A DNA stretch of 64,000 bases from Frankia sp. AgB1.9 (GTDB lineage: Bacteria > Actinomycetota > Actinomycetes > Frankiales > Frankiaceae): contig NZ_JADWYX010000032.1 of NCBI RefSeq assembly GCF_016786355.1, positions 1 to 64,000 of the forward strand, given 5' to 3'. The notes below the pieces were generated by a model, which saw only the letters and a list, made by a program, of their open reading frames with translations, ran no database searches and had not been told where the DNA came from. The position numbers and the translations under genes were made by a program. This document shows positions 39,721 through 41,751 of the stretch, piece after piece (the stretch's first letter is position 1; each line of letters begins with the position of its first letter).

Positions 39721-39851
39721 CGCCTCCAGTGTCCCAGCCGTCCCAGCTGCACCGGCCCCTGGGGCGATCGGCCCGTTTCGTCCGGGTGGCGCGCCAGGCA
39801 CCGGCGCCTGGTGACCCAGATCTCTGCAGTCCGGGAATTTTTGCGTTGACT

Positions 39852-39879
39852 GCAAACTTGTAGGAGAGGCAAAGTTGTA
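39852..39879 (+). promoter_or_regulatory. Two operator-like motifs upstream of DHA2 pump
   Basis: GCAAACTTGTA (39852-39862) and GCAAAGTTGTA (39869-39879) lie in direct orientation with start points exactly 17 bp apart, directly behind TTGACT (39846-39851), a possible -35. They sit 37 bases before the pump start codon. The same 11-mer occurs three times before the TetR gene, so these are probably binding sites of that regulator. Confidence 0.75.
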
Positions 39880-39915
39880 GTGGATGCACGAAGGACCAGC
39901 GGAGGAAGCAAGCAC

Positions 39916-41691
39916 ATGTCTTCACCACGTAGCGCCGGCCTGACCGACGGCGCGCAAGCCGACGCCGGCGGAGGCGTTACGCGGGCGACCGGCGGCACGG
40001 ACCGCCGGATCTGGCTGATCGTCGCGGCGCTCGGCACCGGCCTGCTGCTCGCCTCGCTCGACCAGACGATCGTCGCGACCGCCCTGCCGACGATCGTCGG
40101 AGATCTCGGTGGAGCGGCGCACCTGTCCTGGGTAGTCACCGCTTACCTGCTCGCCTCGACCGTGTCGACCCCGATCTGGGGCAAGCTGGGCGACCTCTAC
40201 GGCCGCAAGCGGTTCTTCCAGGCGGCGATCATCATCTTCGTCGTCGCGTCGGCGCTCGCCGGGCTCAGCCAGTCGATGACGCAGGTCATCGCGTTCCGCG
40301 CCCTGCAGGGCCTGGGCGGCGGCGGCCTGGTCGTCGGGGCCATGACGATCATCAGCGACGTGGTCTCGCCGCGTGAGCGGGGCCGCTACCAGGGCGTCTT
40401 CTCGGCTCTGTTCGCTACGTCCTCGGTCCTCGGCCCGCTGCTCGGCGGCCTGTTCGTCGACCACCTGTCGTGGCACTGGATCTTCTACGTCAACGTCCCG
40501 GTGGGCGCGGCCGCGCTGGCCGTCGCCACCAGGGTGCTGCCCTCGATCCGGTCGACCGTCAAGCGCTCCGTCGACTACCTGGGCACCGCGTTGCTCGCGG
40601 CAGGCGCCACCTGCCTGGTGCTGTTCACCAGCCTCGGTGGCTCCTCGCTCGCCTGGGGCTCGGCGCCCAGCGTCGGCCTGGCCGTCGGTGGTGTCGCACT
40701 GCTCGGCGTGTTCGTGCTGGTCGAACGGCGGGCGACCGAGGCCGTGCTGCCGCCCCGCCTGTTCACGATCAAGGTCTTCCGGGTCGCCAGCCTGATGAGC
40801 TTCGTCGTCGGCTTCGCGATGTTCGGCGCGATCACCTTCCTGCCGCTGTTCCTGCAGATCGTCAAGGGCATCGACCCGACCGTGTCCGGCCTGCAGATGC
40901 TGCCGATGAGCCTCGGCCTGATGATGGCCTCGATGACCACCGGCCGGCTGATCTCCAGCTGGGGCCGCTACAAGGTCTTCCCGATCGTCGGAACGGGCCT
41001 GATGACGGTGGGCATCGCGCTGTTCTCGCTGCTCACCCCGGACGTCTCGACGCTGCGGCTGAGCCTGTCGATGTTCGTGTTCGGCGTCGGGATGGGCCTG
41101 GTTATGCCGGTGCTGACGCTGTCGGTGCAGAACGCCGTCGAACCGCGTGACCTCGGCGCTGCCACGTCCGGCGCGACGTTCTTCCGCTCGATCGGTGGAT
41201 CGTTCGGTACGGCGGTGTTCGGCACGATCTTCGCGAACGTGCTGAGCGGCAAGCTGGCGCACCTGATGGGTGGCCACGCGCTGCCGGGCGGCGTCTCCGG
41301 CTCGGACGTGAGCCCCAGGCTCATCGCCAGCCTTCCCACCGCGCTGCGCACCGGGTTCATCCAGACCTACACCGACTCGCTGCAGGTCGTCTTCCTGGTG
41401 GCGGTGCCGATCGCGTTCCTCGGCTTCCTCACCGCCTGGCTGCTGCCGGAGCTGCGGATGCGCCGTACCTCCGGTCTCGACGCCCGCAAGGAGGCCGCCG
41501 CGGACCTCGCCGACGTGACGGTCCCCGACACGATTCCGGCCGACCTGGCGGTGCTGGGCCGGACCACCGGCCACCGCGACCTGATCACGTCCCGCCGGGC
41601 GCCTGACCACGGCCGCCGGCCCGCCACCCAGGCGGTCCGGCGGCTCGGCAGTCCGGCGGGCGGCTCGGTGGTCCAGCAACAGCTCGGCTAG
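39916..41691 (+). CDS. MFS drug transporter, DHA2 type (copy A)
   Basis: About 591 residues, fourteen predicted spans. Landmarks: [20 protein letters not shown] in span 1, [20 protein letters not shown] (motif A), [20 protein letters not shown] (motif B region), [20 protein letters not shown] (motif C region). Nearly the same landmarks appear in the pump at 42597-44342, so the two are recent paralogues. It is of the EmrB/QacA type, exporting drugs or metabolites by proton antiport. GGAGG precedes the ATG. Two operator-like motifs upstream suggest repression by the TetR protein encoded downstream. The C-terminal 90 residues are cytosolic and Arg/Ala-rich. Confidence 0.93.
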
Positions 41692-41706
41692 ATTTATTCA
41701 GAGACT

Positions 41707-41751
41707 GCAAAGTTGTATGGCGAGCAAAGTTGTAGCATCGGCAAAGTTGTA
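41707..41751 (+). promoter_or_regulatory. Three operator-like motifs upstream of tetR
   Basis: GCAAAGTTGTA occurs at 41707-41717, 41724-41734 and 41741-41751, all in the same direction and exactly 17 bp apart. The 6-base spacers differ (tggcga, gcatcg), so only the 11-mer is conserved. The local sequence is markedly richer in A/T than its surroundings. Position before the regulator gene suggests autoregulation. Confidence 0.8.

Follow-up and report, generated by a model that had tools for sequence, protein, structure and literature searches.

TetR-family regulators bind palindromic operators, and cases in which one operator takes up several dimers are already known (PMC4150764, PMC9210681; statements on published systems refer throughout to excerpts of the papers cited). 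In DNA complexes of the family, the two reading heads lie 31-38 Å apart (PMC4150764). SCO3201, a regulator of Streptomyces coelicolor, binds the N5 operator TGGCAGATTCTGCCA (PMC7324645), and the mycofactocin regulator MftR has a 27-bp operator with T-N2-GGCA-N5-TGCC-N2-A (PMC8728441). QacR, CgmR, CprB and RolR place pairs of dimers on one operator; CprB dimers occupy opposite sides of the DNA, and binding is cooperative for QacR and CprB (PMC4150764, PMC9210681). The paired dimers of QacR, CgmR, SlmA and CprB are 130-145 degrees apart (PMC4150764).

The locus described here lies in a 64-kb window, by which we mean the whole stretch of DNA that was analysed, and holds two arrays of putative operator units around a tetR gene and two pump genes. 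It shares 5-bp half-sites and the N5 spacing with SCO3201, whose half-site is TGGCA instead of TTGYA and which binds, in the excerpt of PMC7324645, one palindrome and no 17-bp array. With MftR it has in common an N5 operator and a C-terminal domain, whereas MftR controls mycofactocin genes, not DHA2 pumps, from a single operator (PMC8728441). AtsR of Corynebacterium glutamicum is, as predicted for the regulator of the window, a TetR repressor of an efflux pump, with an operator (TGCAA-N2-TTGCA) that equals the junction between two units of the window; unlike these arrays, that operator is described as one 12-bp palindrome for one dimer, and the operon contains an RND-superfamily exporter (PMC9210681). 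Our model resembles QacR, CgmR, CprB and RolR in pairing dimers, but these use 22-32 bp for two dimers, whereas the window has 15-bp units in series, up to four (PMC4150764, PMC9210681). EthR comes close in that several TetR dimers, forming a homo-octamer, bind a 55-bp operator with repeats cooperatively, and differs in the repeats themselves, which form no regular 17-bp series in the excerpt of PMC9210681, where this work is cited.

Gene content of the locus

The three genes of the locus were assigned as follows.

39916..41691, plus strand: pump A, DHA2-family MFS efflux permease (TIGR00711, PF07690)
41842..42513, plus strand: tetR repressor gene, 223 aa from this ATG (PF00440 and PF17754 above gathering score)
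42597..44342, plus strand: pump B, the other DHA2 permease, separated from tetR by 83 bp (TIGR00711, 261.7 bits, cut-off 230.2)

Both pumps exceeded the cut-off of the EmrB subfamily profile TIGR00711, pump A with 264.1 bits against 230.2 when scored on the longer open reading frame from 39880; the start given above was chosen from a GGAGGA upstream of the ATG. Similarly, the tetR start at 41842 was chosen with GGAGGAGG upstream, in a frame that can begin at 41776. The tetR product scored 55.5 bits with TetR_N (PF00440, cut-off 24) and carries an MftR C-terminal domain in Pfam. Its best NCBIfam profile was MftR (TIGR03968), at 94.3 bits below the equivalog threshold of 224.9. An AlphaFold model of the protein consisted of helices only (mean pLDDT 81.5), and its top PDB matches in a fold search were TetR-family regulators, SCO3201 first and MftR second. 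As the first-pass annotation had claimed, the motif does not precede pump B, where the closest N5 dyad (within 42441-42660) had 4/10 mismatches. The lack of an array of its own and the 83 bp that separate it from tetR fit a single operon of tetR and pump B. On the minus strand, a divergent gene of about 575 aa (37993-39720), without a Pfam match at 1e-3, has its promoter region in common with pump A, and five other genomes of the genus gave a match to it in their fetched pump A loci; the pump A array could also affect this gene.

Layout of the putative operator arrays

Five copies of GCAAASTTGTA with 17-bp phasing had been proposed, and all five were present, each on the plus strand, starting at 39852, 39869, 41707, 41724 and 41741, with neighbours 17 bp apart within both groups. 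When up to two mismatches were allowed, a count of five in the 64-kb window was matched by 9 of 100 shuffles, so the count alone is not unusual; what is unusual is how exact and how regularly phased the 11-mers are, together with their number genome-wide. The arrays extend one half-site further on both sides, at 39841 and 39889 (pump A) and at 41696 and 41761 (tetR). The first-pass annotation missed unit 1 of the pump A array, the left half of which lies outside the interval it gave. Read as N5 units with 2-bp linkers, there are three units before pump A (39841-39889) and four before tetR (41696-41761), listed here with their mismatches to TTGYA-N5-TRCAA.

39841..39855, no strand assigned: pump A array, candidate operator unit 1, TTGCG-N5-TGCAA, 1 mismatch
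39858..39872, no strand assigned: pump A array, candidate operator unit 2, TTGTA-N5-GGCAA, 1 mismatch
39875..39889, no strand assigned: pump A array, candidate operator unit 3, TTGTA-N5-TGCAC, 1 mismatch, right half degenerate
41696..41710, no strand assigned: tetR array, candidate operator unit 1, ATTCA-N5-TGCAA, 2 mismatches, left half degenerate
41713..41727, no strand assigned: tetR array, candidate operator unit 2, TTGTA-N5-AGCAA, 1 mismatch
41730..41744, no strand assigned: tetR array, candidate operator unit 3, TTGTA-N5-GGCAA, 1 mismatch
41747..41761, no strand assigned: tetR array, candidate operator unit 4, TTGTA-N5-CGCAT, 2 mismatches

In the N5 reading, the 11-mer probably spans a boundary: the right end of one operator, then the linker, then the left end of the following operator. 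Pump A unit 2 begins exactly 17 bp after unit 1. Spacer sequences vary both inside each array and from one array to the other, whereas the half-sites and the 17-bp step are preserved, in other families as well. Across the seven aligned pump A arrays of the genus, the outer left half was TTGCG in six and TTGCA in one (G030), the outer right half was TGCAC, CGCAC or CGCAT, and GCA[CT]GA stood at the phase of unit 3 in all seven. The left half of tetR unit 1 was TTTCA in three orthologous arrays, and 17 bp past the last 11-mer GCANGAT or GCAAAAT was found in all six gap-free arrays of the genus, with GCACGTT in the seventh (L027). The sequence CATGAT (41759-41764), which overlaps tetR unit 4 and reads CAAAAT or CAAGAT in relatives, may be a -10 element. 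In one orthologous locus (L024) TTGACG precedes CAAAAT by 18 bp; it is not kept in the tetR promoter of the window, and the -35/-10 assignment is uncertain.

Conservation within the genome and the genus

The window's own genome (9,788,632 bases) contained exactly five copies of GCAAASTTGTA and none of the reversed control pattern, with about 0.5 copies expected from base composition; a check for scattered 11-mers found none beyond these five in 9.79 Mb. Two tandem N5 units (up to 3/20 mismatches) occurred in five places per strand, all inside the two arrays, with zero for the reversed control, and the supposed link of the motif to tetR and the pumps agrees with this restriction of arrays to one locus in the genome. 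Isolated perfect TTGYA-N5-TRCAA dyads were no commoner than the reversed control (4 per strand); two lie elsewhere, at G000:C187:46613-46627 and G000:C270:27269-27283. Searching 35 genomes of the order for 11-mer pairs with a free spacer of 4-8 bases, we found pairs in seven, own genome included, all of them from the window's genus (Pseudofrankia), and the spacer was exactly 6 in all 15 pairs listed. This corresponds to seven of the eight genomes of the genus, so that spacer-6 pairs are conserved in 6/7 of the others. The eighth genome (G034) has a contig that begins 145 bases before the tetR match, which makes an upstream array unjudgeable. Pump A before and pump B after tetR were likewise present in six of the seven other genomes (L022-L027); in G034 (L028, L084) no pump was found within 4 kb downstream of tetR, which counts against the explanation preferred here.

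A second genus, taken to be Frankia, contributed seven loci; their TetR proteins are 44-51% identical to that of the window, and a pump followed tetR in six; in the remaining locus (L034, G011:C287:6129-6737) the contig ends at tetR, an orthologue with one in-frame TAA. Six of the seven upstream regions (L029, L031-L035) read as a degenerate right half (ATGTA, TTTTA, ATTCA, TTCTA or ATGCA), N5, TACAA/TATAA, GG, TTGTA, N5, TGCAA/TGCAT, and L030 was more degenerate. This pattern suggested a unit centred in what had been annotated as spacer.

Distribution among distant relatives and across the class

A scan of genome records gave 80 TetR relatives, of which we analysed the 78 outside the genus (34-45% identical to the TetR of the window) over the 330 bp before the conserved domain. 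The best TTGCA-N5-TGCAA dyad had at most one mismatch in 32/78 loci, against 7/1560 shuffled sequences and 0/78 for the reversed pattern. When the gap g was varied at the same tolerance, TTGCA-Ng-TGCAA peaked at g = 5, with these 32 loci, and TGCAA-Ng-TTGCA at g = 2 (20/78); both peaks would fit units in series, and smaller unexplained peaks of 11 loci each lay at g = 13 and g = 11. Among the 32 anchored loci, 14 had a second unit (up to 4/10 mismatches) at -17 and 8 had one at +17, where the mean over offsets was 2.4% of loci. Offsets of 9 also scored (12 and 9 loci), which we attribute to self-overlap of TGCA. Three N5 units in series were found in L103 (Streptosporangiaceae) and L088 (Acidimicrobiaceae), where little beyond them is recognisable and the pumps are 52-57% identical to those of the window. 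Counting against the TTGYA-N5-TRCAA reading, 38 of the 78 relatives had no dyad under three mismatches, part of them a Streptomyces group with other repeats. In more than 20 Streptomyces loci (within L110-L161), the place of the TTGCA array is taken by a conserved block in which TGACAG recurs and which often closes with CTGTCAC; the same TetR group probably has another type of operator there. Upstream of tetR in L094, L097 and L122, the 2-bp linker is kept with seemingly N4 instead of N5 inside the unit, hinting that the linker may be the fixed quantity.

For the class as a whole, matches to the exact pattern TTGCAN5TGCAAN{0,30}TTGCA in the 393 genomes were dominated by the small genomes of family f25, so mismatch-tolerant searches with fixed gaps were used. 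A motif-first search for two N5 units (2 mismatches in 20 allowed) found the 17-bp-step array in 41/393 genomes and 20/137 genera, the reversed pattern in 4 genomes and an 18-bp-step control in 39 genomes, 28 of them in f25 and 2 in f39, which left 9. Outside these two small-genome families, the 17-bp step thus kept 39 of its 41 genomes and the 18-bp step 9 of 39 (Fisher p 8e-6, with genomes treated as independent). The control search also returned tandem TTGTAC/GTACAA-like palindromes with an 18-bp step in G250, G314 and G369, which may be operators of other regulators. A TetR relative adjoined the array in 22 of 29 fetched loci; five others were Pseudofrankia pump A arrays, and two (from f25 and f39) were neither. 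Nine of the 29 came from Pseudofrankia or Frankia, and a TetR relative was present in 18 of the other 20. When the gap between units was left free, a TetR relative was found by 4/6 loci with a gap of 2 or 19 (period 17 or 34) against 1/24 with other gaps. In L163 and L177, beside a TetR relative, an exact unit is accompanied by another exact half-site with a 34-bp period, which skips one position, similar to the Nocardiopsis loci L137 and L157. A search with CAAASTTG pairs gave only one locus with a weak TetR match (E 7e-10) among 23 fetched outside the genus. The proposal that selection acts on both the motif and its 17-bp step gained support from the spacer-6 pairs, the partners at -17 and +17, the outer half-sites and the class-wide arrays.

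Probable operator register and alternative explanations

The first-pass annotation had taken CAA-N2-TTG as the repeat unit and had regarded the motif as unlike TetR operators. The second idea was rejected, since in the other register the repeats read as an ordinary 15-bp TetR-type palindrome; the first is probably wrong, as outer half-sites and the N5 and N2 counts favour TTGYA-N5-TRCAA. The unit would thus be centred in the former spacers, a shift in register of half a unit. N5 is favoured because an N5 partner is present at either end of the arrays, because two N5 units occurred in 13/197 genomes outside the genus, f25 and f39 against 2/197 for two N2 units, because the SCO3201 and MftR operators have the N5 geometry with 5-bp half-sites seen in the window arrays, and because the published distance between reading heads matches 10 bp (34 Å) and not 7 bp (24 Å) by calculation. 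With a looser threshold (5/20 mismatches) the difference between registers shrinks to 30 against 29 loci. A dimer on TRCAA-N2-TTGYA (an 11/12-mer), which would leave pump A with two sites and tetR with three, 17 bp apart, seems to us quite unlikely. Consistent with such a dimer are the AtsR operator, in which both half-sites are needed and the two inner bases are dispensable (PMC9210681), Leifsonia loci that have a perfect TGCAA-TT-TTGCA and one weaker N5 partner, three loci that keep N2 with N4 spacers, and the fit in Pseudofrankia, where the two-N2 pattern is one mismatch better than two-N5 because the inner half-sites are strongest. The outer half-sites at both array ends and the 13 genomes to 2 argue against it, its half-site centres would be 7 bp apart and so closer than in known TetR-DNA complexes, and AtsR-type palindromes adjoining TetR genes in the probable Corynebacterium genus usually have N5 partners. 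In 151 genomes of this probable genus, the AtsR palindrome had 29 copies in 26 genomes, six of them beside a TetR relative. The outer left half was within one mismatch of TTGCA in 5/6 of these and 1/23 of the others (p 0.0003). With the same tolerance, the outer right half matched TGCAA in 4/6 and 0/23 (p 0.0006). Beside TetR relatives there, the N2 palindrome would usually be the middle of two N5 units, AtsR itself not necessarily being among the six; in the window, too, the N2 palindrome is present and sits embedded in N5 units.

A lattice without a fixed dimer register, in which two dimers share four half-sites in overlapping pairs as in QacR and RolR, overlaps with our preferred explanation and differs from it in how dimers share half-sites. 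We consider it unlikely, although dimers of dimers on operators of 22-32 bp are known (PMC4150764, PMC9210681) and an N4 repeat likewise occurs together with an N2 repeat in the 29-bp operator of RolR (PMC9210681). Both dyads, N5 and N2 (up to 2 mismatches each), occurred together in 37/78 loci, in line with shared half-sites. Counting against the preferred explanation, dyads of one kind were rare alone (N5 in 2 loci; N2 in 3, with N4 partners). The half-sites of QacR are interleaved with an offset of about 6 bp, whereas the 15-bp units of the window, joined by 2-bp linkers, do not overlap and come in runs of three or four. It is very improbable, in our view, that a different regulator uses the repeats, or that they form a promoter or recombination element with no relation to this TetR: the last half-sites do overlap probable -10 sequences, and TetR binding is deduced from sequence, but arrays occur at no other locus of the genome and a TetR relative stands beside 22 of the 29 arrays fetched from other genomes. 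Chance, or the recent duplication of one promoter piece, can be almost dismissed. Pumps A and B are paralogues whose promoter pieces could have been copied; duplication is hard to reconcile with spacers that differ while half-sites and step persist, even in other families, and the spacer-6 pairs of the genus, the partners 17 bp away and the class-wide arrays contradict both ideas.

Proposed mechanism and significance

The arrays, with N5 units every 17 bp, are most probably operators of the neighbouring TetR, which would be an autoregulated repressor of the two DHA2 pumps. One dimer would bind each 15-bp palindrome TTGYA-N5-TRCAA with its two reading heads one helical turn apart. The fixed 2-bp linker would set dimers side by side over the promoter, three at pump A and four at tetR, on nearly opposite faces of the DNA. 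Such placement had been claimed in the first-pass annotation and agrees with the computed geometry of a 17-bp step (1.62 turns, 58 Å, 137 degrees apart in the short direction). This angle is close to the 130-145 degrees of the paired dimers described above, although the units here lie in series and do not share one short operator. From the constancy of the linker we suspect that adjacent dimers are in contact or assist one another in binding. The repressor would shut pump A at the same time as the tetR-pump B operon and would control its own level, and the overlap of the last tetR unit with the probable -10 element fits repression by blocking polymerase. We infer that an inducer would release the repressor from the arrays.

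In titles and abstract openings of open-licence literature we found no description of 17-bp tandem TetR operators, and searches with operator strings led only to LysR regulators, those with half-site strings to no TetR repressor by title; nor did that literature yield an evenly spaced series with a constant 2-bp linker, common to many regulators of the class. Tentatively, and with considerable doubt, we suggest that a class-wide group of actinomycete TetR repressors may read a quantised lattice of 15-bp operators joined by fixed 2-bp linkers, in which dimers would stack in a regular ladder along the promoter and induction would be more or less sharp according to how many units, from one to four, are present. 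If this were true, some published short TetR operators, such as that of AtsR, would be only the middle of a lattice, and operators described as a single short palindrome might deserve re-examination. The natural series of one to four units would be a test set for how the stacking of repressors shapes pump induction, and the rule of a 15-bp unit, a 2-bp linker and a 17-bp step may find operators and targets of uncharacterised actinomycete TetR regulators from sequence alone.
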